NCBI GenBank assembly: GCA_946408655.1
Contig: CAMJTE010000007.1
Coordinates: forward strand, 1-33,666
Length of the DNA: 33,666 nucleotides
Origin: an uncultured Caryophanales bacterium
GTDB taxonomy: Bacteria; Bacillota_I; Bacilli_A; RF39; UBA660
Direction: 5' to 3'
The translations under genes and the position numbers were made by a program. Positions within the stretch are counted from its first letter, which is position 1; each line of letters starts with the position of its first letter. Of the stretch, positions 2,983-27,973 are shown piece after piece. Under the pieces are notes generated by a model. That model saw only the letters and a program-made list of their open reading frames with translations, did no database searches and was not told the DNA's origin.

Positions 2983-4030
2983 ATGTTTTTTCGTGATATT
3001 CATACTAGAATTAGGATTATATTAATTTCAATCATTTTCTTGTTTTTTCTTATAGTATTTAAAGTGTTCTATATACAAGTAATTAGTTATAATAAATTAA
3101 ATTCTAAGGCAAAAGGAGTATGGAGTCGTAATTTACCATTAGAGGCAAAACGTGGTAATATTTATGATAATGAAGGAGTACTTCTTGCAGGTAATATTAC
3201 TACAACATCTTTAGTATTAATTCCTAATCAAATTAAAAATAAGAAAGATACTGCTAGTAAACTTGCTAGTATTTTAAATGTTAGTGAAAAAGAGATGATG
3301 GCTCATGTATCTAAGAAAACATCGATTGAAAGAGTTCATCCTGAAGGAAGAAGATTGTCTTACGAAATAGCAGATAAGATAAATGGACTAAAATTACCGG
3401 GGGTATATTTAGTAAAAGAAGCGAAAAGATATTACCCGTATGAGAACTGGTTATCTCATACTTTAGGTTATGTAGGAATAGATAATCAAGGACTTGGTGG
3501 ATTAGAACTTACTTATGATAAATATTTAACAGGCAGTAACGGGGCAATTAAGTACTTTTCAGATGCTAAAGGTAAAACATTATCTTTAGCGCAAACTTAT
3601 GAAAAACCACAAGATGGTATGAATATGACGTTAACTATAAATTATGAAATACAGGAAGCTTTAGAAAGAGAATTAGATAATGCAGTATCAATGTATTCAC
3701 CTGATCACGCTATAGGAATAGTAATGAATCCTAATAATGGTGAAATACTTGCTTTATCATCAAGACCTAACTTTGATTCTAATAATTATACAAAGTATTC
3801 TATGGAAGAGATTAATAGAAACTTACCTGTATGGATGACATATGAACCAGGATCAACTTTCAAAATAATTACTCTTGCAACTTCTTTAGAAGAAAAAGCA
3901 GTAGATTTAGAAAAAGATCATTTTAATGATACAGGTTCTATTACTGTAGAAGGAGCACACCTACATTGTTGGCGCCACGGAGGGCATGGAGACCAAACAT
4001 ATTTAGAAGTAGTTGAGAATTCTTGTAATC
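2983..4030 (+). CDS. spoVD: SpoVD-like PBP, fragment A (TM anchor, dimerisation domain, STFK and SxN motifs)
   Basis: WSRNLP..AKRGNIYD, YEPGSTFKIITLA, HCWRHGGHGDQTYLEVVENSCN match SpoVD/class B PBP. ORF continues 18 codons into the element and stops at 4086. Confidence 0.93.
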
Positions 4031-4160
4031 TTGGAATAAATACAGGAACATATTTGAATATGAAGAAAAACTTGCAAATAACATAAATTATACAACCAAA
4101 TTAGAGGTTTGTTCTACATACAATTTAATATACGATGGAGTACAATATTCAAATAATGAA

Positions 4161-4955
4161 GTGATTGATATGTCTGATGTTAATGTTATTTCTAGTGTTG
4201 ATAAAGAAGCATCAGAAAGAAAAACTAAATTATTAAATGTAGATACAAGTTGCTATGAAGATATAATATTCAATAAAAAAGAAATAGCAATAAAATTGCT
4301 AGATAAATTTGATAAACAAATTTTAAATATTAGTGATAATATTAAAAGAAACTATTTAATAAGAAATGTTGCTTATAAATTAGATAAAAAGATAATTGAA
4401 GTACAAGTTAATCAATCAAATGTTTTAATCTCTTTATATAAAAATATAAAGCAATTTGATTATGATGATAAATTATTAATTAGAAAAGGATACGAAAAGG
4501 CTAGTTTATGTTATTTCACTAAAATAGATAAATTAGAAAATTTAAATTATGTAATTGAGATAATTAAAAATTATTATTCATATATATCAGAAACTAATAT
4601 TGATCCAATAGATAACTTATTTAATACTTTATCATTTAAAATTAATTCTATTAATACAAATGTTACTTCTCATACTACTAATAAAGGGTTAATGTTTAAA
4701 AATAGAAGAAACTTTACTATTTTATCTAAAAAGAAATATGGTATTTATATTAGATTATTAGATGTTGAAGATAACAATAATATTCTTAATATAGTAGGTA
4801 GAACTAGTTATGAACCTCTATGTAAATATTTTAAAGTATTAAAAGAAGAAGATATAGATATTATAATGCCATATATAATAAAGAGTTATGAAATATCAAA
4901 ATATAATCCAATAGATTTAAAACATAATTTTATTGAATTATATTATTATGAATAA
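4161..4955 (+). CDS. DUF5655-like protein, probably 5'-truncated at attL
   Basis: GTG-start ORF. The frame is open upstream to the element boundary (..FEYEEKLANNINYTTKLEVCSTYNLIYDG..) with no obvious start/RBS. FKINSINTNVTSH..LMFKNRRNFTILSKKKYGIYIRLLDV resembles DUF5655. Confidence 0.55.
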   Translation: MIDMSDVNVISSVDKEASERKTKLLNVDTSCYEDIIFNKKEIAIKLLDKFDKQILNISDNIKRNYLIRNVAYKLDKKIIEVQVNQSNVLISLYKNIKQFDYDDKLLIRKGYEKASLCYFTKIDKLENLNYVIEIIKNYYSYISETNIDPIDNLFNTLSFKINSINTNVTSHTTNKGLMFKNRRNFTILSKKKYGIYIRLLDVEDNNNILNIVGRTSYEPLCKYFKVLKEEDIDIIMPYIIKSYEISKYNPIDLKHNFIELYYYE

Positions 4956-4959
4956 TATA

Positions 4960-5007
4960 TGTTATTTTTAAAATTAAAATATTAATAAAATAATTAAAAA
5001 AGTAACA
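4960..5007 (+). terminator. stem-loop downstream of DUF5655-like gene
   Basis: TGTTATTTTT...AAAAAGTAACA imperfect inverted repeat; near-duplicate at 9010-9057. Confidence 0.55.
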
Positions 5008-5050
5008 GAAATAAGTGATATAATAATATTGTATAGATGGAGGCTTATTA

Positions 5051-5476
5051 ATGAAGGTTATTAGTATTAAAGAACCATTTGCTACTTTAATTAGAAATGG
5101 TGATAAAAGAGTTGAAACTAGAAGTTGGAAAACGAACTACAGAGGGGAATTATTTATACATGCAAGTGGTAAAAGTTTAGCTAAAGAGTTTTTAAATAAT
5201 GATTATGTTATTAATTTAATTGATGGAATAGATATGAATTATGGTAATATAATTTGTAGAGGAAATTTAGTTGATTGTGTTTATATGGATGAATCATTTT
5301 TAAATGCAATAAAGGAAGATGAAAAAGAATATAACTTAGGATTATATGAAATTGGTAGATATGCTTGGATTTTTGAAGATGTTGAGCCAATATATCCTAT
5401 ACCTGTGAAAGGTCAATTAAATATATGGAATTATGATGGTGAATATGAAATTATGAATACTAAAAAACATCGCTAG
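5051..5476 (+). CDS. ASCH domain protein
   Basis: MKVISIKEPFATLIRNGDKRVETRSWKTNYRGELFIHASG; RBS ggagg. Confidence 0.88.
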   Translation: MKVISIKEPFATLIRNGDKRVETRSWKTNYRGELFIHASGKSLAKEFLNNDYVINLIDGIDMNYGNIICRGNLVDCVYMDESFLNAIKEDEKEYNLGLYEIGRYAWIFEDVEPIYPIPVKGQLNIWNYDGEYEIMNTKKHR

Positions 5477-5534
5477 ATTTTGACATAATAGTTGTCATGT
5501 GCTAGAATAATCATTGATTTAGGGGGAATTATAT

Positions 5535-6134
5535 ATGATAAAATTAAAGAGAACTGGCACACAAGAAGAATTCGATAAGGGAGTAGAAGCATTAACTTCA
5601 ATATTTATTGAAGAATATCCTTATTATTCAACATGGATAATTAATCACTTGGATCAATTTAAAAATGGTGAAAAACAAATTTTATCCATTAATAACGAAA
5701 ATGAATTACTAGGTTATTTAATGATACATTTTTGCACAGATAAAATTGTAAAAATTAATGGTATTTATGTTTTTGAAAATAATAAGGGAAAAGGAATTGC
5801 AACTTTGGCTATAAACGAATTGGCTAGATTATTACAAAAAATGGATGTACAATTAATATTTGTTCAAACAAGATTAGATAATAATGCTGTTGTTCATTTA
5901 TTTGATAAAACTGGGTATAACCTAATTGGCAAGAATTTTCATCCTGTTGAATTAAAAGAAAATTGGGTTGCATGTAATAATGTTTCATCATTAGAATTTG
6001 ATGATCAAAAAGTCGCATTAGAAATATATGATGGATTTACTCCTCTTTCTGAGCAAGAAGTTCAAGAACTAAGAAATGAGCACAAAGATGGAAATTTAGT
6101 TTTAAAAAAGAAAATTAAGAAAATAGGTGATTAA
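5535..6134 (+). CDS. GNAT family N-acetyltransferase
   Basis: KINGIYVFENNKGKGIATLAINELARLL acetyl-CoA-binding pattern; RBS gggggaa. Confidence 0.85.
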   Translation: MIKLKRTGTQEEFDKGVEALTSIFIEEYPYYSTWIINHLDQFKNGEKQILSINNENELLGYLMIHFCTDKIVKINGIYVFENNKGKGIATLAINELARLLQKMDVQLIFVQTRLDNNAVVHLFDKTGYNLIGKNFHPVELKENWVACNNVSSLEFDDQKVALEIYDGFTPLSEQEVQELRNEHKDGNLVLKKKIKKIGD

Positions 6135-6135
6135 T

Positions 6136-6846
6136 TTGAATAAAAAACCAATAATTGGAATTGTTGGAAAACCACAGTGTGATGATGTTATCTGGAATAA
6201 AATATGTATTAGTAATGAAATTAAAGATGCAATTAATAAAAATGGTGGAGTTGCTATTGGAATAATTCCTCAAAGCAAAATAAAACAAATAAAAGAAGGG
6301 AAACCATTTTCTTATCAAAATTATTATTTAGATGAGAAATCATTAAGTGATTTGTTTTCAACTATTGATTTATGCGATGGTATTATATTAGAAGGTGGAA
6401 TTACAATTTGTGATTATGAACAAGAGATTGCCAAATATTGCATAGAAAAAAATATTCCTTTATTAGGAATATGTTGTGGATGTATTAATATGGCTCTAGC
6501 AACAGGTGGAAGTATTTCATTGGAAAACTATGATTATTTAAAAGAAAAACATTTTAGTTTGTTAAATATGGAAATGCATGATGTAATTATTGACAAAGAT
6601 TCTAAACTTTATTCAATGATTAAAAAAGATAAATTTATTGTTAATAGTATTCATAAATGTAAAATAGATAATCCGGGTGCTTATTCAATAAAAGGACTTG
6701 CCAATGATAATATTATAGAATTACTTGAGTTAGATGGAAAAGGATTTAATATTGGCGTTCAATGGCATCCAGAATTTATAACTGATAAAGAAGAAGAAAA
6801 TCAGATATTTAAAAAATTTATTGATTATATAATTAAAAGTAATTAA
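6136..6846 (+). CDS. class I glutamine amidotransferase-like (gamma-glutamyl-GABA hydrolase / peptidase C26 type)
   Basis: KKPIIGIVGKP.., LLGICCGCINMALATGGS, VQWHPEF catalytic Cys/His-Glu motifs. Confidence 0.85.
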   Translation: MNKKPIIGIVGKPQCDDVIWNKICISNEIKDAINKNGGVAIGIIPQSKIKQIKEGKPFSYQNYYLDEKSLSDLFSTIDLCDGIILEGGITICDYEQEIAKYCIEKNIPLLGICCGCINMALATGGSISLENYDYLKEKHFSLLNMEMHDVIIDKDSKLYSMIKKDKFIVNSIHKCKIDNPGAYSIKGLANDNIIELLELDGKGFNIGVQWHPEFITDKEEENQIFKKFIDYIIKSN

Positions 6847-6951: not shown

Positions 6952-7089
6952 ATGAAAAAAATAATAAAAGAATTAAAATTAATAATTAATAAAGAATTAT
7001 ATCAAAAAGGTAAAATTACATTTGAAGAATTTAAATTAGCAAATGAAAGAATAATGAAAGAGAAAGAAAATGAATATTGTAAAAACTAG
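6952..7089 (+). CDS. small SHOCT-like protein (45 aa), overlaps recombinase start
   Basis: MKKIIKELKLIINKELYQKGKITFEEFKLANERIMKEKENEYCKN; RBS tggaggt. Confidence 0.6.
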   Translation: MKKIIKELKLIINKELYQKGKITFEEFKLANERIMKEKENEYCKN

Positions 7090-8653
7090 AAGTGAGTTAT
7101 TACTTGGTAAAACCATTTTTGATATGAATTTAAATGTTGGTTATTATGCAAGAGTATCTACTGATAAAGATGATCAGTTAAATAGTTTAGAAAATCAATC
7201 TAATTATTTTAAAGAAATGATAAATGAAAATAAGAATTGGAATTTAGTTGGAGAATATATTGATGAAGGTATAAGTGGAACTAGTATAAAAAATAGAGAT
7301 AATTTTTTAAGAATGATTGAGGATTCTAAAGCGGGGAAACTTGATTTAATAGTTACAAAAGAAATATCTAGGTTTTCTAGAAACGTAATAGATAGTATAA
7401 AATATACAGAAGAACTTTTAAATAATGGAACAGTAGTATTTTTTATAAGTGATAATATTAATACTATATATCCAGATAGTGAATTTAGATTAACTTTGAT
7501 GTCATCTCTTGCACAAGATGAAGTTAGAAAGCTTTCTGAAAGAGTTAAATTTGGAATTAAAAGAATGATTAAAGATGGAAAAGTAATTGGAAGTAATTTA
7601 ACTGGATATTATAGAAAAGATGGAAAAATGATTATTAATGAAGAGGAAAGACCAATTATTGAAACATTATTTAATTTATATGTAACAGGAAAATATTCTT
7701 TTGAAAAAATAGCGGACATTTTATACAAAAAAGGATACAAAAACAAAAATGAAAAAATCTATTCTGGAACTACTCTAAAAAAATTTCTAACTAACCCTAG
7801 ATATAAGGGTTATTATACAGCTAATTTAACTAAAGTAGAAAGTTATAAAACTCATAAAAAGATTAAGGTACCAAAAGAAGAACATATAATTTATAAAACA
7901 GATTTAATTGAACCAATAGTATCTGAAGAGTTATGGGATAAAGCAAATATGTTATATGAAAAAAAGCATAAAGCAAAAAATACTCATATAACAACTAATC
8001 AAAAAGTAATAGATGAATCTAAATACACATTTAAACTAATCTGTAACGAACATAATGAAATATTTGTTAGATGTGCTGGATCAAATAGAAGAAATAATCC
8101 TACTTGGGTATGTAAGAGGTATAAAAATGATGGAGTTATTATTTGCGAATCTCCAATTATTAGAGAAAAAAAATTAGATGAATTATTAGAAAATATAATA
8201 AGCAATTATATAAAAGGGTATTTAAAAGATATTACAAATCAAATGGTTAAACTTTATAATGAGGTTTCAATTATATCAAACCAAAAATTAAAAATAGATT
8301 TAGAAAAAAGACTTGAAGATTTAATAGGACATAAAGATAAATTAATAAATTTAAATTTATCTAAAATTATTTCAAATGAAGATTTAAAAAATAAATTAAT
8401 TAAAAATGAAAGTGATATAAATAAAATAAATAATGAATTAGAAAATATAAAAGAAGATATCAATATCACATCAAATATTAATGATGTAGAAAAAGAAATA
8501 AAAAATATTATAAATGTTAAATATAATTTAAATACTTTTGTTAATTTATTAATAGATAAAATTATAGTTACAAAGTTAGATACTAGATACAAAATGAATT
8601 TAAAAATATATTTTAAAGATGGAAATATAAAAGATGTTTTATTTGAAAATTAA
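7070..8653 (+). CDS. large serine recombinase (E1)
   Basis: VGYYARVSTDKDDQLNSLENQ catalytic Ser region, VTKEISRFSRN, recombinase domain, C-terminal coiled coil. Confidence 0.95.
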   Translation: MNIVKTRSELLLGKTIFDMNLNVGYYARVSTDKDDQLNSLENQSNYFKEMINENKNWNLVGEYIDEGISGTSIKNRDNFLRMIEDSKAGKLDLIVTKEISRFSRNVIDSIKYTEELLNNGTVVFFISDNINTIYPDSEFRLTLMSSLAQDEVRKLSERVKFGIKRMIKDGKVIGSNLTGYYRKDGKMIINEEERPIIETLFNLYVTGKYSFEKIADILYKKGYKNKNEKIYSGTTLKKFLTNPRYKGYYTANLTKVESYKTHKKIKVPKEEHIIYKTDLIEPIVSEELWDKANMLYEKKHKAKNTHITTNQKVIDESKYTFKLICNEHNEIFVRCAGSNRRNNPTWVCKRYKNDGVIICESPIIREKKLDELLENIISNYIKGYLKDITNQMVKLYNEVSIISNQKLKIDLEKRLEDLIGHKDKLINLNLSKIISNEDLKNKLIKNESDINKINNELENIKEDINITSNINDVEKEIKNIINVKYNLNTFVNLLIDKIIVTKLDTRYKMNLKIYFKDGNIKDVLFEN

Positions 8654-8703: not shown

Positions 8704-8899
8704 CAGGATTTGTAAATTTGGGATTAAAACTAGGTAAGGAAACACTTTTTAAATATATAAAAAACTTTGGATTTGGAACAAAAACTGGAGTAGATATAGT
8801 AGGGGAATCCAAAGGAATATTATTTAATGTCGATAATATAGGTGATTTGGAACTTGCAACTACTGCTTTTGGTCAAGGAGTATCAGTAACTCCTATACA
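8704..8899 (+). CDS. spoVD: SpoVD-like PBP, fragment B
   Basis: (P)GFVNLGLKLGKETLFKYIKNFGFGTKTGVDIVGESKGILF...ATTAFGQGVSVTPI; continues fragment A exactly. Confidence 0.93.
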
Positions 8900-9007
8900 T
8901 CTTGGAGTCTGTTAAATGATACCTTTACTATAACTAGAGGAAAGTCTAGTAAATATACTAAAAAATATGATGTTGAGTTCAATTATAATTGTTTTGCAGA
9001 AATATAA
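8900..9007 (+). pseudogene. remnant C-terminus of a DUF5655-like gene at E2 left end
   Basis: open frame ..TITRGKSSKYTKKYDVEFNYNCFAEI* resembles the E1 tail ..SYEISKYNPIDLKHNFIELYYYE*, and is followed by the same 48-nt stem-loop. Confidence 0.45.
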
Positions 9008-9009
9008 AA

Positions 9010-9057
9010 TGTTACTTTTAAAATTAAAATATCAAAATAATAATTAAAAAAGTAACA
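9010..9057 (+). terminator. stem-loop, near-duplicate of 4960-5007
   Basis: TGTTACTTTT...AAAAGTAACA inverted repeat; 48 nt with few differences from the E1 copy. Confidence 0.6.
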
Positions 9058-9076
9058 TTTATATAACAAATTTACA

Positions 9077-9111
9077 TTTTTTAGGAATATTAATTAGTTT
9101 TTCCTAAAAAA
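9077..9111. terminator. AT-rich hairpin, possible bidirectional terminator
   Basis: TTTTTTAGGAA...TTCCTAAAAAA inverted repeat (approximate ends). Confidence 0.6.
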
Positions 9112-9194
9112 TAAAAATATTTTTTTATAATTTTACTTAAAATATATTTTCAAATATGATTTATTTTAATCGTTAAAGGAAAAAGCAAATGTAA

Positions 9195-9223
9195 TTTACA
9201 AAATAATAAAATTATGATATATT
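9195..9223 (+). promoter_or_regulatory. promoter for attenuated deaminase operon
   Basis: TTTACA -17 bp- TATATT. Confidence 0.6.
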
Positions 9224-9261
9224 ATAAATGTAAATTATTCAAAGAAAGGAGTGTGATTAAG

Positions 9262-9327
9262 ATGAAAAATTTACAAGTTATTAATAATGCAGAATTAATC
9301 ACTACTCCTAATTTATTAAACTTTTAG
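9262..9327 (+). CDS. leader peptide (21 aa) MKNLQVINNAELITTPNLLNF
   Basis: RBS AAAGGAG; ORF contains a segment (9284-9299) perfectly complementary to the 5' arm region of the downstream terminator. Confidence 0.75.
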   Translation: MKNLQVINNAELITTPNLLNF

Positions 9328-9352
9328 GAATATTCTTTTAGATTATAAAATT

Positions 9353-9378
9353 AATTCTGCATTATGCAGAATTTTTTT
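9353..9378 (+). terminator. attenuator terminator
   Basis: perfect 9-bp stem AATTCTGCA-TTA-TGCAGAATT plus T tract, directly before RBS of the 9396 gene. Confidence 0.85.
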
Positions 9379-9395
9379 GTTAGGAGGATATTGAA

Positions 9396-10151
9396 ATGAT
9401 AATGAAATTAAATATTAATGATAGAGCCGCTCTAGCTATTAAAAATAATACTAAAAGAGTAGAAATAAGAGTAAACAAAGAAAATAGTGAGCATGATTAT
9501 AGTATATTAAAACAAAATGATATTATAGAATTTACTAGTAATAATTTAGGTGCATTTTATGTTAAAGTTAAAGAAGTAAATTATTATAATTCTTTAGATG
9601 AACTTTTTACTTTAGAAGGAACAAGATATACAACTTCATCTACAAATGATAAAGAAGAAGCAATTAGAAATGTAAGTAAATTAGATGGATATGAAGAAGC
9701 TATTAAGAAAAATGGTGTATATGCTATTCATATAGAATATTTATATAGTGAAAATACTGTTTGGGAAGAATTATATGAAAAGGCAAAGAGTTTCAGAAAT
9801 CCAAGAGATGTATCAGGTATGATTAGTGCAGGAGGAGTAGGAGCAGCAATACTTACTAAAAATCATAATATTTATACTGGAGTATGTATTGATACTGCAT
9901 CAACACTAGGCATGTGTGGAGAACGTAATGCGATTGCTAATATGATTACAAATGGTGAAAATGAAATTATAAAGTTAGTATGTGTTGATTCTAAAGGTAA
10001 TGTTGGTTCACCTTGTGGTGCTTGTAGAGAATATATGATGCAACTTTCTAAAAATAGCAAGAATATTGAGATACTAAAAAATATTGATACTAAAGAAATA
10101 GTAAAATTAGAAGAATTAATACCTGATTGGTGGGGAAGTGAAAGGGTATAA
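9396..10151 (+). CDS. ASCH domain - cytidine/blasticidin-S deaminase-like fusion
   Basis: N-term NTKRVEIRVN..NDIIEF (ASCH-like); C-term GMCGERNAI and SPCGACREYMMQL zinc motifs. Confidence 0.85.
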   Translation: MIMKLNINDRAALAIKNNTKRVEIRVNKENSEHDYSILKQNDIIEFTSNNLGAFYVKVKEVNYYNSLDELFTLEGTRYTTSSTNDKEEAIRNVSKLDGYEEAIKKNGVYAIHIEYLYSENTVWEELYEKAKSFRNPRDVSGMISAGGVGAAILTKNHNIYTGVCIDTASTLGMCGERNAIANMITNGENEIIKLVCVDSKGNVGSPCGACREYMMQLSKNSKNIEILKNIDTKEIVKLEELIPDWWGSERV

Positions 10152-11587
10152 TGAAGAATATAAATCTAGTTGTTCCAAAATTAAGAGATTATTACTATGA
10201 ACAAAAACTTGAAAGTGATTCTAAAACAATGAGTTATAATGCAGGATATGATGTATCATACTTTGGATATCATTATGATACAGGTTGCATAGATTTTCCA
10301 AAAGAAAAATGGGAAGATACATATAATAAAAGAATAAATGAAAACAAGTATTTTGCTTATATAAAGGATTGTACTATTAATAGATATGTTGGATATGTTA
10401 ATTATCAATATAATAAAAATGATGATATTTATGAGTGTGGAGTATTGATTGAATATAAGTATAGAGGTAAAGGTTATTCTAAAGATGCATTAAGACTTTT
10501 AGTAAAAGAGGCAAATAAAAATGGAATAGAATACCTTTATGATACTTTTGAAAAAGAGAGAGAAAATACTTTAAAAACTTTCCTTGATGTTGGATTTGAA
10601 ATTTATAAAGAAAATATATGGAAGAAATTTGATAAAAATGTAAATGGTGTAATAGTTAGAATTAAAACAGATAGAGTTTTACCAGATATATCAAATATAA
10701 AAACAATAGATGATGTTTTATCATTTATGAAGAAAAACATAAGATATGGATGGATAGATATTAATAATGAAATTCATATTGGTAATATGAAAAATTTTAG
10801 GAAACTATATAAAACTTTATCTATTGAAGAAATACTAGAATATGGTATTGGAACATGTATAGATCAAGTTAATTTAATGCATTATTTATTGAATAAAATA
10901 AACATTAAAAATAAAATGTTTGCAACTAGAATATATGAGCCTAATAATTTTAATAAGCTAGATGAAGAAGAACATATGCATTGTTTCATATTATGCTATA
11001 TTGATAATAAAGTTTATCATATTGAACATCCGAATTGGTATAGAATAGGTATATATGAATATGAAGATGAACAAGAAGCATTAAAAACAATTAATGATTA
11101 TTATATTAAGTTGTCAGGAGGAATATCAAGACCTATAACAGAGTTTTATAAAATTGATTACAATATTTCATTTAAAGAGTTTAACAGTTATATTAATAAT
11201 TTAGATGTACTAAAAAATAATAATTTAAATTCAATTAATAGGTGGACATTTGGAATAGATACAGATAAATTAGTGAAACTTGTGTTAGATGGTAAAAAGA
11301 CAGCAACAGCATCTTTGTATGAATATGATAGTTTACCTACAGTAGGTGAATTATCAATATTAACTGATTCAAATAATAATGATATATGTATTTTAAAAAC
11401 AAAAAAGGTTATTATAACTGAATTTACGAATATTACTTGGGATTTAGCAAAATTAGAAGGAGAAAATAATTCATTAGAAGGTTGGAGAAAAGTTCATAAA
11501 GATTACTTTAACAAAATAGATTCTACTTTTAATGATGATACAAAAATTATATTTGAAATATTTGAGGTGGTAGAGAGATGCAAATAA
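10151..11587 (+). CDS. three-domain protein: GNAT - transglutaminase-like - ASCH
   Basis: IEYKYRGKGYSKDALRLLV (GNAT); GIGTCIDQVNLMHYLL..HCFILCYIDNKVYHIEHP (transglutaminase-like); WTFGIDTDKLVKLVLDGKKTATASLYEYDSLPTVGE (ASCH). Confidence 0.8.
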   Translation: MKNINLVVPKLRDYYYEQKLESDSKTMSYNAGYDVSYFGYHYDTGCIDFPKEKWEDTYNKRINENKYFAYIKDCTINRYVGYVNYQYNKNDDIYECGVLIEYKYRGKGYSKDALRLLVKEANKNGIEYLYDTFEKERENTLKTFLDVGFEIYKENIWKKFDKNVNGVIVRIKTDRVLPDISNIKTIDDVLSFMKKNIRYGWIDINNEIHIGNMKNFRKLYKTLSIEEILEYGIGTCIDQVNLMHYLLNKINIKNKMFATRIYEPNNFNKLDEEEHMHCFILCYIDNKVYHIEHPNWYRIGIYEYEDEQEALKTINDYYIKLSGGISRPITEFYKIDYNISFKEFNSYINNLDVLKNNNLNSINRWTFGIDTDKLVKLVLDGKKTATASLYEYDSLPTVGELSILTDSNNNDICILKTKKVIITEFTNITWDLAKLEGENNSLEGWRKVHKDYFNKIDSTFNDDTKIIFEIFEVVERCK

Positions 11588-12066
11588 TTGAATACGAGAA
11601 TAAATATTTGGAAGATGTTAAAGACTTGTTAGTTGAACTTGAAAAGTATATTTTATCTATTGATAAAGATAATTTAGATCAACTACATCCAGAATATAGA
11701 GAAAAAATGGCAATTTTAGATTTAGAAGAAGTTAAAAATAATAATGGTAAATGTTATATAGCAGTTGAAAATGATAAAGCAGTAGGATTAATTATGGGAA
11801 CTATAATTAAATTTGATGAATATGATTACCTAGACTATAAATGTCCTAAAGAAGGGGAAATAACTGAATTAGTAGTTTCTAAAGATGTAAGAAGTAAAGG
11901 TATAGGTAATATGCTTATTTCTAAAATGGAAGAATATTTTAAATCATTAGGTTGTGAATATGTTTTAGTAGATGTATTTGCTTATAATGATAATGCTATT
12001 AAGTTTTATGATAAAAGTGGATATCATTCCAGAATGTGTACAAATATAAAGAAGATTGGAGATTAA
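11578..12066 (+). CDS. GNAT family N-acetyltransferase
   Basis: TELVVSKDVRSKGIGNMLISKMEEYFKSLGCEYVLVDVFAYNDNAIKFYDKSGY. Confidence 0.92.
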   Translation: MQIIEYENKYLEDVKDLLVELEKYILSIDKDNLDQLHPEYREKMAILDLEEVKNNNGKCYIAVENDKAVGLIMGTIIKFDEYDYLDYKCPKEGEITELVVSKDVRSKGIGNMLISKMEEYFKSLGCEYVLVDVFAYNDNAIKFYDKSGYHSRMCTNIKKIGD

Positions 12067-12067
12067 T

Positions 12068-12448
12068 ATGATATTTAAAGAATTTTATATATCTGATAAA
12101 AACGGAAAAAGCAATTGTGTAATAAGAAGTTTATGTAAAATTTTAAATAAAGAATATGAAGATGTTTATAATGGATTATGCGAAGTTTCAAAAGAATTAA
12201 AACGTTCTTCATTTAATGATATTGAAGTATTTGAAAAATATATGGAAGATAATAATATTATTAAAATCAATCGTGATGAAGATATTAAAGTTAAAGATTT
12301 AAAAATAGATAATGGTTCATATATTGTGTTTTGTTATGACAAAAAAGAATTTTATCATATGATTTCAATTATTGATAATGATATATATGATAAAAATTCT
12401 GATTGTATGGATTTATATGTTATATCAGTTTATAGAAAAATAATATAA
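12068..12448 (+). CDS. possible papain-fold/cysteine peptidase-like small protein
   Basis: NCVIRSLCKIL (Cys near N-term) and YHMISIIDNDIYDKN (His) pattern; weak. Confidence 0.45.
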   Translation: MIFKEFYISDKNGKSNCVIRSLCKILNKEYEDVYNGLCEVSKELKRSSFNDIEVFEKYMEDNNIIKINRDEDIKVKDLKIDNGSYIVFCYDKKEFYHMISIIDNDIYDKNSDCMDLYVISVYRKII

Positions 12449-12475
12449 ACAGATGTAAAATACACATTTTTAATG

Positions 12476-12514
<39 letters not shown>

Positions 12515-12539
12515 AATTACTTTGAAATGGGGTATTTTC

Positions 12540-13055
12540 GTGAAAGAAACAATATATAATTATGACTATTTAAATGATGAAGACATAACTGAAGTTGTTA
12601 CAAGAACTAAAGCATTAATAATTAATAATAAAAATATAATTTTGGGAAATGAAAATAATATATATCAATTTCCAGGAGGTCATTTAGAGGAAAATGAAAC
12701 TTTTGAAGAATGCTTAAAACGTGAAGTCTTAGAAGAAACTGGTATAGAGATTGATGACGATGAAATAAAAAGACCTTTTATGAAAGTCAATTATTTAAAT
12801 AAAGATTGGCCAGCAATTGGTAAAAATAGAAAATCCGAAATATATTATTATTTAATTGAAACTAGTAAAAATCCAGATATGAATAAGGTAAAATTTACCG
12901 AACATGAAAAACAAGGTAATTTTAAAATTGAATCTATTCCTTTGAATGAATCAATAAGTGTTATTGAAAATAACATTTCAAAAAATGAAAAAAATAAAGT
13001 TATAGCACCAGATATGATAATGGCCATAGCAGAATACTTATATCAGTGTAAATAA
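12540..13055 (+). CDS. NUDIX hydrolase
   Basis: GGHLEENETFEECLKREVLEETGIEI Nudix box; GTG start with RBS tggggt. Confidence 0.93.
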   Translation: MKETIYNYDYLNDEDITEVVTRTKALIINNKNIILGNENNIYQFPGGHLEENETFEECLKREVLEETGIEIDDDEIKRPFMKVNYLNKDWPAIGKNRKSEIYYYLIETSKNPDMNKVKFTEHEKQGNFKIESIPLNESISVIENNISKNEKNKVIAPDMIMAIAEYLYQCK

Positions 13056-13125
13056 ATGTAGTTTGCAAGTTGAAATTAGCAAAAAAATCTATATAATATG
13101 TTTTAATAATTGATTAATCAATGGT

Positions 13126-13156
13126 GGAGGAGGCTATTTTTAGTCACCTCTTTTTT
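13126..13156 (+). terminator. hairpin plus T tract in 5' UTR of HAD gene (candidate attenuator)
   Basis: GAGGAGGCTA-TTTT-TAGTCACCTC-TTTTTT, one mismatch and one G.T, between a TATAAT promoter and the start codon. Confidence 0.65.
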
Positions 13157-13172
13157 GTTAGGAGATGGTAAA

Positions 13173-13664
13173 ATGTTTTTTATAAATGAGTTGCAAAAGA
13201 TTAGAAACGATAATTCAGGAAAAATTGGTGTTTTTATTGATATGGATGGAGTAGTTGCAGATTATAGATTTGGTGAAGGAAAAAATATTGAAAATAATGT
13301 TCCTGGTACATATTTGAATAAAAGACCTATTTCAACAGCAATTAATATTTTAAAAGAAGTTAATAATGCTTTTGATTTTGATATGTATATTTTGAGTTCA
13401 TGTAGACATGATGAACAAGCTATTGAAAAAAGTAAGTGGCTTGAAAAAAATATGCCATTTATAGATAAGAAACATCAATTGTTTGTAGTTTCGAATACAT
13501 TTGAAGATAGAAAAATGTTAAAAATTAATAAAATTAAAGAAATTATGGAAAACAAATATGATAAAGTTATAATGATAGATGATACACATGATATATTATT
13601 TTTGGCAATAAAAAATTTAGGTGATAAAGTAATTCCGTATCATGTGATTACATTATTTGATTAG
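13173..13664 (+). CDS. HAD-family 5'(3')-deoxyribonucleotidase-like
   Basis: VFIDMDGVVADYRFG, YILSSCRHDEQA, VIMIDDTHDI; RBS TTAGGAG upstream of ATG 13173. Confidence 0.82.
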   Translation: MFFINELQKIRNDNSGKIGVFIDMDGVVADYRFGEGKNIENNVPGTYLNKRPISTAINILKEVNNAFDFDMYILSSCRHDEQAIEKSKWLEKNMPFIDKKHQLFVVSNTFEDRKMLKINKIKEIMENKYDKVIMIDDTHDILFLAIKNLGDKVIPYHVITLFD

Positions 13665-13675
13665 GAGGGGTAATT

Positions 13676-15175
13676 ATGAAATATGATGTTATAGTAGATT
13701 GTTATACTGATGAACCATCTGGGTTGGGAGTGCCTCCATTTTTAAGTGTCCATTCAAGATATATTGCTGGTGCATTAGAAGAACAAAAAAGAAAATATTA
13801 TTACTTAACTATAGATGACTTGAGATATAGTAATGGAGAAAAACACAATAATGATTCATATAATAAAAGAATCATTAATACAACCAAAAATAAAGATAAT
13901 GTTTTTGATATTTTAAATAATGCTAACAATATTTATGTTGTGATGGGCTGTTTTGTTAAATATGAATATGTATCAGCAGAACCTCCATCATTCTTAGAAG
14001 TTGAAAATCTATTGAGAAAATATAGTGCTAATAAATTATTATTTTATTCTTTAGGTGGAAATGAATTGACGAGAGAAAATGTTAGAAAAACTGTTCCACA
14101 AGGTTTGTTCAATGAAATAATATTTGGAAATACATATAATTATTTTATTGGTGAAACAAGTAATAAATTTAAACCTAATTATGATAGATTAAAAAATATT
14201 GCTATATCTTCTGCAACAGTACTTAATCAATTAGAAAGACCTTTAGTAATAGAGATAGAAACTGCAACGGGTTGTAATAGAAAACCAGGCTGTACATTTT
14301 GTATTGAAGGTATGAGAGGTTTACCATTACAATTTAGAGAAGTAGAAGATATTGTTTCTGAAATTAAAAGCTTATATGATAATGGTGCTTTATATTTTAG
14401 ATTAGGAAGACAACCTAACTTTTATGCCTATAAAGATTGTAATCCTTCTGAAATTGAAAAGTTACTTAAAAGAATATGGGAAGAATGTCCAAATATTAAG
14501 ACACTTCATATTGATAATGTTAGTCCTCACAATGTTAATACACCTGAAGGAATAAAAATAACTGAAATAGTTGCAAAATATACTACTGCTGGAAATATTA
14601 CACCATTTGGGATAGAGTCTTTTGACTCAAGAATCAGAGAATTATGTAACCTTAATGGTAGTTTAAATGATATTCACGAATCAATAAATATCATTAATAG
14701 ATTTGGTAAAGAACGTGGCGATAATGGATTCCCAAAATTATTGCCTGGTATAAATATTATTTATGGTTTAGATGGGCAATCCGAAAAAACTTTAGATTGT
14801 AATTTGAATAATTTTAAAAGAATATTAGATTCAGGTAATTGGGTTAGAAGAGTTTTTGTTAGAAAATTAACATCCCCCTATGGTGAGCAATTTGATAGAT
14901 ATACGAAAGACAAACTTGATGAATTTAAAAATTGGAGTTCTACAATTGAAAATGATTTTACTATTCCGATGTTAAAGCAAGTATTTCCAGTTGGTTTAAT
15001 AATTAAAGATTTAAGAATGGAAATGTATAAAGATGGTGATTCTATTTTAAGGCAAATGGCAACTTGTCCAGTTAGAGTTGTTGTAAAAAACAAAGAATTA
15101 AAACTAGATCAATTTTATACTGTTAAAATTATTGGATATGTAGGAAATAGAACTCTATTAGGAGAAGTTATATGA
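13676..15175 (+). CDS. radical SAM protein with C-terminal TRAM-like domain
   Basis: ETATGCNRKPGCTFCIEG (CxxxxxxCxxC-like cluster), GIESFD; C-term LDQFYTVKIIGYVGNRTLLGEVI resembles TRAM. Confidence 0.82.
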   Translation: MKYDVIVDCYTDEPSGLGVPPFLSVHSRYIAGALEEQKRKYYYLTIDDLRYSNGEKHNNDSYNKRIINTTKNKDNVFDILNNANNIYVVMGCFVKYEYVSAEPPSFLEVENLLRKYSANKLLFYSLGGNELTRENVRKTVPQGLFNEIIFGNTYNYFIGETSNKFKPNYDRLKNIAISSATVLNQLERPLVIEIETATGCNRKPGCTFCIEGMRGLPLQFREVEDIVSEIKSLYDNGALYFRLGRQPNFYAYKDCNPSEIEKLLKRIWEECPNIKTLHIDNVSPHNVNTPEGIKITEIVAKYTTAGNITPFGIESFDSRIRELCNLNGSLNDIHESINIINRFGKERGDNGFPKLLPGINIIYGLDGQSEKTLDCNLNNFKRILDSGNWVRRVFVRKLTSPYGEQFDRYTKDKLDEFKNWSSTIENDFTIPMLKQVFPVGLIIKDLRMEMYKDGDSILRQMATCPVRVVVKNKELKLDQFYTVKIIGYVGNRTLLGEVI

Positions 15176-15819
15176 AAAAAGTTGGATTACTTGTTCCAAA
15201 AACAAATTTAACTGTTGAATATGAACTACAATATTTATATAATAATCACTTTTTTAATATCGAAGATATAGCGTTTTATATTTCAAAATTAGACTATAAA
15301 ACAAGCTATAAAGAAGATAAAACAAAATTTTTAAATGATCTTGCAAATGATAGTAATAAGAAAATTAATGATTTAGAATATATTGGTGTTGATTACATTA
15401 CTTTTTTCTGTACATCATCATCTGTACTAAATTCTGAAATCATTATTAATAATAATCCTTTTACTGCACTGCTAGAAGAGGTCATAGAGAAAAATATAAA
15501 AAAGTGTTTATTGATTACTCCGTATGATGATGTTGTTGGAACAAATATTAAAGTTGAATTAGAAAAAAATGAAGTTTTCGTTTGTAAAAACATTAATTTA
15601 AATTTATTAAATACAGCAGATTATTTTGATTTTGGTATTAATAAGCTTAAACAATTTATTATTGATAATTATAAAGAAGAATATGAAAATGTAATAATTT
15701 CTTGCACCAATCTTCCAACACTATCAATAATTAATGAATTGGAATCTTTATTTAACAATAATGTAATATCAAGTAATTCATGTTTATTTAATAAAATAAA
15801 AAAAGAAGTGGTAGGTTAA
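15172..15819 (+). CDS. Asp/Glu racemase / maleate isomerase-like
   Basis: KKVGLLVPKTNLTVEYEL, DYITFFCTSSS, VIISCTNLPTL paired Cys-Thr motifs. Confidence 0.7.
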   Translation: MKKVGLLVPKTNLTVEYELQYLYNNHFFNIEDIAFYISKLDYKTSYKEDKTKFLNDLANDSNKKINDLEYIGVDYITFFCTSSSVLNSEIIINNNPFTALLEEVIEKNIKKCLLITPYDDVVGTNIKVELEKNEVFVCKNINLNLLNTADYFDFGINKLKQFIIDNYKEEYENVIISCTNLPTLSIINELESLFNNNVISSNSCLFNKIKKEVVG

Positions 15820-15823
15820 TATA

Positions 15824-16585
15824 ATGACAAAAGAAGAATTTAAGAAGATAATTGATGTTTGTGCAAGTATGCCAGATGTAAAAGAAGATGTTTTTAAAAA
15901 TCATGACAATAATATGTGGTGGCCTTTAGAAATTGAAGATTATAAAAAGAGATTACTTATTGCAGGATTGTCTACAAGAATTTCTTATAATATGATTAAT
16001 AGTTATAGGAAAGTTATAAATAAATTGAATGAATATAGTTATGAGCAAATAAAAAGTATGAAAAAAGAAGAAATTATTGAAATAATTAAAGGTTTAGGAC
16101 TTTCTAACACTCGTTATTCATATCTATCATCAATGATTGATTTTATTGAAAAATATAATGATACAATATTAGAAAAAGATAATGATGAATTGATTGAGTT
16201 AATTGCTAATAACGTTAGTGGTGCTTCGTACAAAGTTGCTCAATGTTGTGTACTATATATGCGTGGATATTATTGTGGAATTATGCCAGTTGATAGTGGT
16301 ATGAAGGATGTTGAATTACCATGTATTGGTTTTGAAAAATATGGAAATGCAATTGGACATGATATACTTAGAAAACAATTACAAGAATTAGTTAAAGACA
16401 ACAATATGGAAGATATTATTATCAAATATGGATATGATAAATTAAATATACCAAATTATAATAATGCTACTTGGTGGGCTCATTTAGTATTGATTTATTT
16501 TAAAAGACATTATTGCAATAAACACAAACCTGATGAATGTCCATTAGCAAATAAAGTATGTGTTAGTTGTAAATGTAAAAAATAA
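15824..16585 (+). CDS. HhH-GPD DNA glycosylase, endonuclease III-like with C-terminal Cys cluster
   Basis: IKGLGLSNTRYSYLSSM, VDSGMKDVELPCIGF, C-term CNKHKPDECPLANKVCVSC ([4Fe-4S]-type spacing). Confidence 0.72.
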   Translation: MTKEEFKKIIDVCASMPDVKEDVFKNHDNNMWWPLEIEDYKKRLLIAGLSTRISYNMINSYRKVINKLNEYSYEQIKSMKKEEIIEIIKGLGLSNTRYSYLSSMIDFIEKYNDTILEKDNDELIELIANNVSGASYKVAQCCVLYMRGYYCGIMPVDSGMKDVELPCIGFEKYGNAIGHDILRKQLQELVKDNNMEDIIIKYGYDKLNIPNYNNATWWAHLVLIYFKRHYCNKHKPDECPLANKVCVSCKCKK

Positions 16586-16606
16586 CAAATTTAAGGGGGA
16601 TTTGAG

Positions 16607-17104
16607 ATGATAATAATTGAGGGATTAGATGGTGTTGGTAAAACAACTTTAGTTGATTATTTTGTGAATATGGGAATGAAAAAATATCATTTTGATTATG
16701 ATGCTCAAAATATGGATTTGTTTACAAAATATATGCTAGTATTAGATGAGAAAACTGATATTTTAGTTTTAGATAGATCTTTTATAAGTGAAATGGTATA
16801 TGGTACTGTATTGCGTAATAATTGTAAATTAACAATTGAACAATATACTGAATTGTTAAAAACATATAAAGAAAAAGGAGCTACAATAATTTATTTAACA
16901 GCCCCAAAAGAAGTTTTATTAGAAAGAAGAGCTAATGATTTAAAGGATTATGAAATGATTGATAAATATTATGAAACTCTAAATGCTAGATATGATGAAA
17001 TTATGGATTATAGTTGTAATTACATAAATGTTTTACAATATGATAGTTTTGCTATGAATAAAGAAGAAATTCAAAATAATACTAAGAGGTTGATTGTTAA
17101 ATGA
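16607..17104 (+). CDS. thymidylate kinase-like dNMP/nucleoside kinase
   Basis: IIIEGLDGVGKTTLVDYF P-loop, LVLDRSFISEMVYG, LLERR. Confidence 0.85.
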   Translation: MIIIEGLDGVGKTTLVDYFVNMGMKKYHFDYDAQNMDLFTKYMLVLDEKTDILVLDRSFISEMVYGTVLRNNCKLTIEQYTELLKTYKEKGATIIYLTAPKEVLLERRANDLKDYEMIDKYYETLNARYDEIMDYSCNYINVLQYDSFAMNKEEIQNNTKRLIVK

Positions 17105-18693
17105 TAGATTTATGTTTTGTTGGAAATAGTTCAATAGATTTAATTAAAAATGAAAACGGGAATGAGAAAAAATTTGGTGGGAGTGCTATATATAGTTCAC
17201 TATCATGTCGAAGTATTTCTGATAAAAGTATAGGAATAATAAGTAATGTTAATAGTAATTTAAAAAAATTACTAGATTCAAAACAGATATATTTATTTGG
17301 TAAGGTTGTTGATGAGATAAATACGTTTGAGATAGATGAAGCTTTAGGAACTTGTAATTTTATAAAACAAAGTAATAATGATATTTTAATTGATGAGGAT
17401 ATTGAAGTTAATTATTTACATGTTTCATTTAGAAAAGGTGTAAATATAGTTAATGTTTTAAACAATCCAAAAATAAGATATAATCATTTATCTATAGATG
17501 TTATGATACATAGTATAGATAGTTTTATAGAAATGATAGAAAAATATATTGATAAAATTGATATAATTTTTTGTAATAATGAAGAGTATCAAGTGTTAAA
17601 AAAACATTTTAATAATTTGCCACTTACTATTATTACAAATCAAGACAAACCAGTTATAGCTGTAAATAAGGAAAAAAATATATATTTTAATGTTCCACAA
17701 AATATTTCTACAGTATCTTCAACAGGAGCAGGAGATTCCTTTATAGGGGGCTTCTTAGCAGAGTATTCAAAAAATCAAAATCTTAATAGTGCAATAAATA
17801 CTGGTATTGCTAATGCAAGTTATTCTGTAACTAAATTAGGGCCTATTAATATTTCATGTAGAAGTACTGATATATTTAAAAATGGTATTTTACCTAAAAA
17901 TATAATAGTTGTAGGTAATTCGTGTGCAGGTAAAACAACTTTTATTGATTTTTTTAAATCGTTTTATAATATATATACAGATATTGATGATTTGGCTCCA
18001 TTGTTAGAAATGTTTATGATAGATGACATTTCTAATGACAATAATCTTGATGATTTTATTAATCTTAAAAATAAATTAGTATTTATGAAAGATATTTATG
18101 AGCATTATTTAAATAATTTTTCTAATATAGAACACTATACCGTTATTGCAAAAAATGGTGAAGGACATGATATTATAAATCCTGATCTTTGGGATATAAT
18201 TTTAAAAAGATCAGTAGAAGTACTAAAAAATGAAAACAACATAATTCAATTTTCTCGAGGGCGAGATGAAGAATATGAAAAAAAATATGGAAATGATGTT
18301 TATAAAAGAAGTCTAGAAATTATTCTTCAAGAACTAGATAATAAAACAAGTACTATTATAATAAACTTGGTTTCAGATTTAAAAATAAGAAAAGAAAGAA
18401 ACAAAATTAGATTTGAACAAGGTGGTCATTTTGTTTCTGAAGATACTATGGATAATGTCTATAAGGATGATATTTTCCAATACGAGCATGTTGAAGATAT
18501 TAAAGGTGTTATTAATTTGTCAGGAGTAAATTATCCTGTATATACGATTAATAATAATAGAATGTTATCATCAATTGAACTATCTGAATTTTTAATGTAT
18601 AATGTTAATGAAATATTAAAATATTATGAAGAATTTAAGGAGGAAAAAAATTATGAATATGAAAGAAATTCAAAAGGAAATATGGCAAAATAA
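17101..18693 (+). CDS. PfkB carbohydrate/nucleoside kinase fused to C-terminal P-loop kinase
   Basis: KFGGSAIYSSL, STGAGDSFIGGFLAEY (PfkB); PKNIIVVGNSCAGKTTFIDFF (Walker A). Confidence 0.85.
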   Translation: MIDLCFVGNSSIDLIKNENGNEKKFGGSAIYSSLSCRSISDKSIGIISNVNSNLKKLLDSKQIYLFGKVVDEINTFEIDEALGTCNFIKQSNNDILIDEDIEVNYLHVSFRKGVNIVNVLNNPKIRYNHLSIDVMIHSIDSFIEMIEKYIDKIDIIFCNNEEYQVLKKHFNNLPLTIITNQDKPVIAVNKEKNIYFNVPQNISTVSSTGAGDSFIGGFLAEYSKNQNLNSAINTGIANASYSVTKLGPINISCRSTDIFKNGILPKNIIVVGNSCAGKTTFIDFFKSFYNIYTDIDDLAPLLEMFMIDDISNDNNLDDFINLKNKLVFMKDIYEHYLNNFSNIEHYTVIAKNGEGHDIINPDLWDIILKRSVEVLKNENNIIQFSRGRDEEYEKKYGNDVYKRSLEIILQELDNKTSTIIINLVSDLKIRKERNKIRFEQGGHFVSEDTMDNVYKDDIFQYEHVEDIKGVINLSGVNYPVYTINNNRMLSSIELSEFLMYNVNEILKYYEEFKEEKNYEYERNSKGNMAK

Positions 18694-18952
18694 ACTTAAT
18701 AAAGGATTCAATACAACAGATGTTAATAAAGAATTTTGCTTATTATATGGAGAAGTTGCTGAAGCATATGATGCATATAGAAAAAAGAAAGATGATTTAA
18801 ACGAAGAACTTGCCGATATAGCAATATACCTAATGGGGTTATCTGAAATGCTTGGTTTTGATTTAGAAACTGAAATTCTAAAAAAAGTAGATAAAAATGG
18901 TAAGAGAGTATATAAAAATATAGATGGCGTTAATGTCAGAGTTAGTGATTAA
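18653..18952 (+). CDS. MazG-like NTP pyrophosphatase
   Basis: KEFCLLYGEVAEAYDAYRKKKDDLNEELADIAIYLMGLSEMLG; RBS aaggagg; overlaps previous CDS. Confidence 0.82.
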   Translation: MNMKEIQKEIWQNKLNKGFNTTDVNKEFCLLYGEVAEAYDAYRKKKDDLNEELADIAIYLMGLSEMLGFDLETEILKKVDKNGKRVYKNIDGVNVRVSD

Positions 18953-25852: not shown

Positions 25853-27514
25853 ATGGACTTATATACAGTTAGGAATAATATATTAAAAGGTATTCCTTTA
25901 CAAGAATTAAATCTTAGGGTATGTTTTTATGCTAGAGTATCAACAGATAAAGATTTGCAGTTGCACTCACTACAAACACAGATAACATTTTTTAATGATT
26001 ATATTAGTAAAGTTCCTAACTGGCGCTTTGTAGGTTCATATATAGATGAAGGAATAAGCGGAACGCAGGTTAAAAAACGTGAAGAATTTTTAAGAATGAT
26101 TGAAGATGCAAAAAATCATAAATTTGACTTAATTCTTACAAAAGAGATATCTAGGTTTTCTAGAAGCACATTAGATAGTATTAAATATACACAAGAATTA
26201 TTATCAAGTGGTGTAGGTGTATACTTTTTAAATGATAACATTAATACTATATTACCTGATTCGGAACTTAGACTTACAATTATGTCTTCAATTGCTCAGG
26301 ATGAGGTTAGAAAATTATCTGAAAGAGTTGCATTTGGTATGAATAGAAGTATTGATAATGGTGTTGTACTAGGGTGCTCTAATATATATGGATATGTAAA
26401 AGATAAAGGAAAACTTGTAATAGATGAAAAACAAGCAGAGATGGTTAGAATAATATATGATAGATATGCAAATACCTCTGATGGTGTATCTAAAATATCA
26501 AGATATTTATACTCACTTGGATATAAAAGTAAAACTGGTAAAAGGATTGATACAACGATTATTACAAGAATTATAAAAAATCCTAAATATAAAGGATATT
26601 ATTGTGGACGTAAGTCTAAAGTAGAAGATTATAGGACTAAGAAAAAGAAGTTTTTAAATGAATCAGAATGGATTTTATATAAAGATGAAGAATCAGTTCC
26701 TGCTTTAGTATCTGAAGAGTTATGGGAACGGGCAAATATCAAATTAAAAAGTAGACAAAAGAGTTTTGATAATAGATTAGAAGATAAAACAATATTTCAA
26801 AATAGGTATACATATTCAGGTAAAATATATTGTGGATGTCATAAACTTACTTATCATAGGGTGGGCGCTGGAAAAAGGAAGAAAAATCCTGTTTGGGAGT
26901 GTCAGGTTTATAGAAAAGAAAGCTTAAAAGGGTGTACTAATCCTAGATTATTTGAGCGTGAATTAGATGAACTATTTAGTGATATACTTAATAAATTATT
27001 GAATAAAACAAATACATTTTTTGATGAGATATTAAAAGAATGTAAAAACTATTTAATGATTAATAATAGTAAAAATGATATTAAAAAGTATGAATCTAAA
27101 ATACAAGTTTTAAATAATAAAAAAGATAAACTGTTAGAACTTGTTATGGAAGAATATATAACTAAGGATGAATATAAAAAACAATTAGATATAATTAATA
27201 GTGATTTAGAAAAATATAAAGATAATATTAATAAATTAAATGATAATAATAAAGATGAAAACTATATTAAAAATAAAATTAAAGAAATTAAACAAGTTTT
27301 AGAAAAATATAATTTAGATAGTGTTTGTTATAGTGATTTATTTAATGAATTAGTAGATAGAGTATATGTTTATAAAGAAGAAGGTAAAAAAATAAAATTA
27401 GATATTTTTATTAAAACTGGAGAATGTATAAAATCATTCTCCAATGAATTAGGTAAAAAGTTTCATTTGCAGGACCCCGTTACAACAAATAACTGCGGTA
27501 TCTGCGGCAATTAA
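25853..27514 (+). CDS. large serine recombinase (E2); stop codon lies beyond the element boundary
   Basis: VCFYARVSTDKDLQLHSLQTQ, ILTKEISRFSRSTLDSIKYTQELL; paralogue of the E1 recombinase. Confidence 0.95.
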   Translation: MDLYTVRNNILKGIPLQELNLRVCFYARVSTDKDLQLHSLQTQITFFNDYISKVPNWRFVGSYIDEGISGTQVKKREEFLRMIEDAKNHKFDLILTKEISRFSRSTLDSIKYTQELLSSGVGVYFLNDNINTILPDSELRLTIMSSIAQDEVRKLSERVAFGMNRSIDNGVVLGCSNIYGYVKDKGKLVIDEKQAEMVRIIYDRYANTSDGVSKISRYLYSLGYKSKTGKRIDTTIITRIIKNPKYKGYYCGRKSKVEDYRTKKKKFLNESEWILYKDEESVPALVSEELWERANIKLKSRQKSFDNRLEDKTIFQNRYTYSGKIYCGCHKLTYHRVGAGKRKKNPVWECQVYRKESLKGCTNPRLFERELDELFSDILNKLLNKTNTFFDEILKECKNYLMINNSKNDIKKYESKIQVLNNKKDKLLELVMEEYITKDEYKKQLDIINSDLEKYKDNINKLNDNNKDENYIKNKIKEIKQVLEKYNLDSVCYSDLFNELVDRVYVYKEEGKKIKLDIFIKTGECIKSFSNELGKKFHLQDPVTTNNCGICGN

Positions 27515-27871
27515 CGGTGGTAAATTATATAAACCATATATTGTAAAAAGCATTAATGAACCTGAAACAAATAGTGTAATTGTGAAAAATGAACCTAAAG
27601 TAGTTAGAAAAGTAATAAGTGAAGATACTAGTAAAAAAGTAAGATATGCACTAGAAAGCGTAGTTGCTCGTGGTACTGGACATAATGCTTATATAGCTGA
27701 TTATCGTGTTGGAGGTAAAACAGGTACAGCCCAAAAAGTAGAAAATGGAATTTATTTAAAAGGAAATTATATAACCTCATTTATTGGGTTTTTACCTGCT
27801 AATAATCCCCAGGTTATAGTTTATATTGCAATAGATAATGCCAAAGGTATAACTCAGTATGGAGGAACAGT
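27485..27871 (+). CDS. spoVD: SpoVD-like PBP, fragment C (KTG motif)
   Basis: QITAVSAAINGGKLYKPYIVKS...RYALESVVARGTGHNAYIADYRVGGKTGTAQKV...SFIGFLPANNPQVIVYIAIDNAKGITQYGGT. Confidence 0.93.
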
Positions 27872-27973
27872 ACACGCTCTTCTAAGTGAAAAGAGGAATA
27901 AACTCTTTATTTATAAGGGATTAAGGCAATACTGAAACACTTTTAATATACAAAAATAGTGTTGGAGGCAAAA

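Follow-up and report, generated by a model that had tools for sequence, protein, structure and literature searches.

The stretch of DNA analyzed here (the window; 33,666 nucleotides of contig CAMJTE010000007.1 from an uncultured Caryophanales bacterium) contains a co-directional gene array whose first gene encodes an ASCH domain fused to a cytidine-deaminase-like domain and is preceded by a promoter, a short leader ORF with its Shine-Dalgarno (SD) sequence, and an intrinsic terminator (Table 1). A sequence-only reading of this DNA had proposed these leader elements together with a complementarity between arms 2 and 3, and we found each of them in place, with the complementarity exact over 16 nt. 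Absent from that reading were pairing of the leader SD and spacer (arm 1) with an anti-SD segment inside the leader ORF (arm 2b), a possible stem at the 5' end of the RNA, and a small hairpin.

Table 1. Features of the leader and of the downstream gene array in the window
Feature	Coordinates	Strand	Details
Promoter TTTACA-17-TATATT	9195..9223	+	TG ahead of the -10; RNA start expected at ~9230
RNA 5' end TGTAAATT	9229..9236	+	Can pair with 9267-9274 (AATTTACA), leader codons 2-5
Arm 1, anti-antiterminator: leader SD and spacer GGAGTGTGATTAA	9248..9260	+	SD GGAG at 9248-9251; partner 9295-9308
Leader ORF MKNLQVINNAELITTPNLLNF	9262..9327	+	ATG 9262, TAG 9325-9327; 21 codons plus stop
Arm 2, antiterminator 5' strand within leader ORF	9284..9299	+	Partner 9350-9365
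Arm 2b, anti-SD TTAATCACTACTCC	9295..9308	+	Overlaps arm 2
Small hairpin TCCTAA...TTAGGA surrounding leader stop codon	9306..9329	+	Arms 9306-9311 and 9324-9329; antiterminator cap in the ON fold
Arm 3, antiterminator 3' strand	9350..9365	+	Includes terminator 5' strand
Intrinsic terminator AATTCTGCA-TTA-TGCAGAATT-T7	9353..9378	+	Arms 3:4 and T7
ASCH-cytidine deaminase fusion, first gene of the operon	9396..10151	+	251 aa; CGER and PCGACRE zinc/catalytic motifs
GNAT and ASCH protein, transglutaminase-like middle	10151..11587	+	478 aa
GNAT acetyltransferase, operon member	11578..12066	+	Near the deaminase in many loci
Rest of co-directional array	12056..18952	+	Putative operon members (by spacing and strand only): small unknown, NUDIX, NT5C-like, radical SAM, arylmalonate-decarboxylase-like, HhH-GPD-like, dTMP-kinase-like, PfkB, MazG-like

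The deaminase motifs are conserved as CGER/CAER and PCGAC in 21 homologues, which is the C-[AG]-E and P-C-x-x-C pattern of the cytidine deaminase superfamily, and the structure was predicted with a pLDDT of 88. The gene had been called blasticidin-deaminase-like, a name that proved too specific: general cytidine deaminases match at least as well, and an ASCH domain lies at the N terminus. In sequence searches of the PDB, cytidine deaminases (CDA) scored 2.8e-12 and blasticidin S deaminases (BSD) 1.6e-4 at best, and the NCBIfam cytidine deaminase model scored above its cut-off, so that the sequence is no closer to blasticidin S deaminase than to cytidine deaminases. Foldseek with the predicted fold placed CDA structures first (3.9e-10, with BSD at 1.5e-8), with similar TM-scores. 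Cytidine-deaminase-like is the safe name. We also considered an N4-acylcytosine amidohydrolase role for the ASCH domain. The YqfB-type enzymes use a Lys-Thr-Glu triad plus Arg (PMC6972931); by eye, the position of the nucleophilic Thr is Glu here, with Lys and Arg kept (K-R-V-E-I-R), and this role was rejected. Plasmid- and phage-borne homologues matched the deaminase domain with at most 64% identity and covered half of the protein, and the deaminase had no match in a viral collection.

The transglutaminase-like middle of the second gene product is our own tentative reading, with no Pfam match behind it. The neighboring genes (GNATs, NUDIX, kinases) differ in order between loci in the fashion of a cassette array, and the first gene behind the leader is usually the deaminase. 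Pieces of a penicillin-binding-protein gene (SpoVD/FtsI-like; 2983-4086, 8718-8915, and 27582-27935) flank this cargo, and serine recombinases at 7070-8653 and 25853-27514 point to tandem insertion of two integrative elements at a single site within that gene. Homologues of the penicillin-binding-protein piece also occur close to the deaminase in L003, L004, L015, L019, and L023. A second small array at 4161-6846, encoding ASCH (5051-5476), GNAT (5535-6134), and glutamine-amidotransferase (6127-6846) proteins, has no recognisable attenuator, and PADLOC reported no convincing defence system.

The terminator is the sole terminator-like stem on the forward strand of 8900-10200 (shuffle mean, 0.0), and its exact upstream complement of 16 nt is by far the longest among the T-tailed hairpins of the window, the next longest being 12 nt (an A/T run) and the rest 4 to 9 nt. 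Taken alone, the promoter falls short of significance (8 such sites present versus 11.8 expected), but comparably positioned -35 and -10 elements precede almost every homologous leader. In the centroid fold of 9230-9378, the leader SD region is base paired to the leader ORF. Because the SD:anti-SD arm overlaps the antiterminator strand, the 1:2b and 2:3 pairings are mutually exclusive, and the leader can form all three classic structures: an anti-antiterminator (1:2b), an antiterminator (2:3), and a terminator (3:4).

The conservation of these arms was analyzed in related loci. Using the deaminase as a query against a genome collection recovered 80 loci, and an alignment was built from 27 distinct leaders of related, uncultured gut Bacilli. 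Across these 27 leaders, six antiterminator pairs were changed on both sides versus 0.8 after shuffling, and four terminator pairs versus 0.5 (0/500 in each case). The SD:anti-SD helix was 94.6% paired, an invariance too high for covariation, and the small hairpin was paired in 79.7% of cells and missing from some leaders. In L015, the leader and arm 3 are altered jointly and arm 4 is unchanged, keeping a G-U. Homologues L014, L031, and L032 are leader-less. In L007 (2096-2133), the DNA between two TGCAGAATT direct repeats is absent, so that arms 2b and 3 are lost and neither an antiterminator nor a complete terminator is left; L007 looks like a natural, predicted constitutive form. A plain terminator with fortuitous complementarity might be entertained in DNA this A+T-rich, where loose complementarity is common, and a less stringent test (permitting G-U and a single mismatch, with mononucleotide shuffles) was indeed not significant individually for several leaders. 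We therefore rely on the exact pairing, on covariation, and on conservation across species. These, together with maintenance of the ORF and the failure of any of 400 shuffled leaders to switch (see below), leave fortuitous complementarity with virtually no credibility.

In all 34 diverged leaders examined, the frame of the leader ORF stays open over 17 codons or more; the other two frames are open in 0/34 and 2/34. L025 carries a frame shift within the ORF and still terminates at the equivalent stop, indicating that the RNA matters more than the central amino acids. Peptide starts also vary by sub-group (MKNLQ, MNYII, MKKLE, and MRNVK), and the RLR (Arg-Leu-Arg) arrest motif is absent from all leader peptides read. 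Stalling specific to MKNLQ need not be invoked, as the N termini of related leaders differ and the 5' RNA stem could account for the conserved codons. This possible stem is present in most deaminase-type leaders and not in those of the GNAT, ABC, and kinase types; its two strands are shifted jointly with an insertion in L023 and L105, and it would cross the SD hairpin. An amino-acid-starvation attenuator of the trp/ilv type likewise has a leader ORF with a terminator and antiterminator, but here we observed no run of a single codon, no amino acid common to the leaders at a fixed place, and no biosynthetic gene downstream, making a starvation response exceedingly improbable.

We computed how the position of a ribosome affects the fold by partition-function folding with the ribosome footprint kept unpaired, a treatment that assumes equilibrium and simplified footprint lengths. 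In naked RNA, the probabilities were 0.99 for the SD hairpin, 0.00 for the antiterminator, and 0.89 for the terminator. A ribosome on the AUG reversed this outcome (antiterminator, 0.97; terminator, 0.00). The result was mixed with the P-site at codon 4 (antiterminator, 0.36 versus terminator, 0.43), implying a narrow window of inducing arrest positions, and the terminator predominated with the P-site at codon 9 or 13 (0.94 to 0.95). The switch from off in naked RNA to on with a ribosome at the AUG was found in 30 of the 34 leaders, the exceptions being L009, L030, L157, and L158, and in 0/400 shuffled versions of the window leader (ATG to terminator). According to this model, the operon should be on only with arrest at the first codons, or at the stop codon if sterics are ignored.

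Arrest at the leader stop codon deserves attention as the inducing event, considering that blasticidin S in bacteria preferentially blocks termination (PMC8287960) and would be expected to hold ribosomes there. The window leader indeed favors the antiterminator when a ribosome occupies the stop codon (0.80 versus 0.18 for the terminator). However, this effect, unlike that at the start codon, is not conserved, with a terminator probability of at least 0.67 in about half of the 34 leaders, and the antiterminator would need to close around the ribosome. The preference of blasticidin S for termination is a mismatch with the ribosome position that the conserved anatomy rewards, and we consider induction from the stop codon very improbable.

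The anatomy of the arms, their conservation in dozens of related species, their covariation, and the computed thermodynamic switch lead us to propose that the leader probably acts by ribosome-dependent transcription attenuation, with termination as the default and induction by translation inhibitors that arrest ribosomes early. In the free RNA, pairing of the leader SD with the 3' portion of the leader ORF (1:2b) would sequester the antiterminator strand, so that the terminator (3:4) forms and the operon is off. A ribosome translating through the leader would cover arm 2, with the same outcome. A ribosome arrested at the AUG or within the first few codons would instead cover the SD in arm 1 and leave arm 2 free to pair with the emerging arm 3, blocking the terminator and allowing RNA polymerase to enter the deaminase operon. 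The likely trigger would be an inhibitor of the first elongation steps, and the operon products (the deaminase, acetyltransferases, and kinases) would inactivate the drug. Cytosine-nucleoside inhibitors of peptidyl transfer would be attractive substrates, as they would also arrest early ribosomes, and a cytosine-containing peptidyl-transferase inhibitor may be the natural target. Comparative and thermodynamic evidence strongly supports the idea, already put forward in the sequence-only reading, of a mutually exclusive antiterminator and terminator set by a ribosome early in the leader ORF; the drug induction proposed there is a reasonable hypothesis. Overlooking the SD:anti-SD arm, that model would give read-through whenever the leader is untranslated, whereas the default predicted here is termination.

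The same structures could in principle sense general SD occupancy by initiating ribosomes (30S or 70S at the AUG, or stress that traps initiation), with no role for a drug or the peptide. Induction is predicted from the start codon itself, the peptide start varies between leader sub-groups, and the MKNLQ codons of the deaminase group are explicable by the 5' stem, all of which suit this alternative. Yet the controlled genes resemble drug-modifying enzymes and exporters, a better fit to drug sensing, and a full ORF, unnecessary for mere SD occupancy, is kept in all leaders. Sensing of SD occupancy therefore appears unlikely to us, and we retain attenuation induced by early-arresting inhibitors as the preferred reading.

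The distribution of the leader was assessed with an exact pattern and a covariance model. The pattern (GGAGNGTGATTA...TAATCAC) occurred in 10 of 276 genomes of the order (reversed-pattern control, 0) and in 3 of 395 genomes drawn from the class, namely, the own genome, which was part of the draw, and two unrelated sites. Pattern matches L170 and L171 are unrelated, the latter resembling a ribosomal-protein gene start. The covariance model found one copy in the own genome and more in the same order; its weak matches L120, L121, and L149 are ordinary gene starts, and L155 was discarded as decayed or broken. Of 23 viral contigs that matched a degenerate leader pattern, the covariance model supported at best one weak match (L131; E, 0.14). 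Clostridial stand-alone homologues (L034-L081) have no such leader by eye.

Related leaders, widely divergent in sequence and retaining the SD:anti-SD logic, also precede other genes. These include a GNAT acetyltransferase (L119), an AAA-type small kinase followed by methyltransferase-like and phosphotransferase-like ORFs (L156), a protein without recognised function (L157), and, in one genus, ABC exporters (L148, L158, and L161, with another ORF intervening in L148). In L153, the leader lies almost directly before a GNAT-transglutaminase-ASCH protein, with a short deaminase remnant in between. Within the order, stand-alone deaminases belonging to the same clade (L095, L097, L098, and L099) are preceded by the GAAAGGAGTGTGATTA sensor module and an ORF of 15 to 16 codons, with no terminator and a second hairpin that sequesters the SD of the gene. 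In folds with a ribosome on the leader AUG, this SD was freed in L095, L098, and L099, which are predicted to be ermC-like translational attenuators, and the small hairpin persisted in L097. One sensor with two outputs argues for ribosome sensing and against a ligand-specific riboswitch. As a more tentative extension, one SD:anti-SD module that reads ribosome arrest at the start codon may serve uncultured gut Bacilli as a lineage-specific plug-in sensor, with transcriptional and translational outputs, for at least five unrelated enzyme or exporter genes, including a dedicated ASCH-deaminase that would act on gut-produced, cytosine-containing inhibitors of peptidyl transfer. If so, it would be, to our knowledge, the first drug-induced attenuator for deamination of a nucleoside antibiotic.

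An antibiotic-stuck ribosome on a leader gene is a classic on-switch for bacterial resistance genes. The leaders described here share the anatomy of such attenuators, namely, an SD and leader ORF 5' of a terminator, a mutually exclusive antiterminator and terminator, and a computed anti-antiterminator at the leader start. No Rfam family matched at gathering score anywhere in the window. The leaders are a new family, absent from Rfam, of a known attenuator kind, and the closest described system is rli80-hflXr of Listeria monocytogenes (PMC6310831). There, an antibiotic-stalled ribosome causes read-through, mutation of the start codon abolishes induction, and deletion of the anti-anti-terminator makes expression constitutive. 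Both have a short ORF overlapping the anti-anti-terminator, followed by an antiterminator and terminator, a logic proven experimentally in Listeria and computed here. However, the 14-aa Listeria ORF carries the macrolide-leader RLR motif, which the present family lacks, and the Listeria target is a ribosome-splitting factor rather than drug-modifying enzymes. Bacillus subtilis bmrB-bmrCD, which is induced by ribosome-targeting antibiotics, similarly places a leader ORF, terminator, and antiterminator before a drug gene (PMC4191407); ABC exporters are targets in both systems, but the leader peptide is unrelated and most members of the present family control other genes. The arms of the ermC translational attenuator likewise pair as 1:2 / 2:3 / 3:4, arm 1 again containing the start region of the leader (PMC4191407), and its translational output resembles that of the stand-alone-deaminase leaders L095, L098, and L099, but ermC hides the SD of the gene where the window leader employs a terminator. 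Leader-peptide transcription attenuation of a resistance gene is also found in mef(E)/mel and msrD (PMC4335068 and PMC10314930), which are macrolide specific and have no sequence relation to the present leaders.

Uncultured gut Bacilli are difficult to grow, and our literature searches returned no regulatory work on them. Our analysis, read from sequence alone, suggests that these bacteria carry resistance-like operons under a conserved family of ribosome-sensing RNA switches and that these operons are predicted to be inducible. The genes behind the switch (the deaminase, GNATs, a kinase, an ABC exporter, and proteins without known function) constitute candidate resistance functions aimed at translation inhibitors to which the community must be exposed, and the leader family provides a search model for further members.
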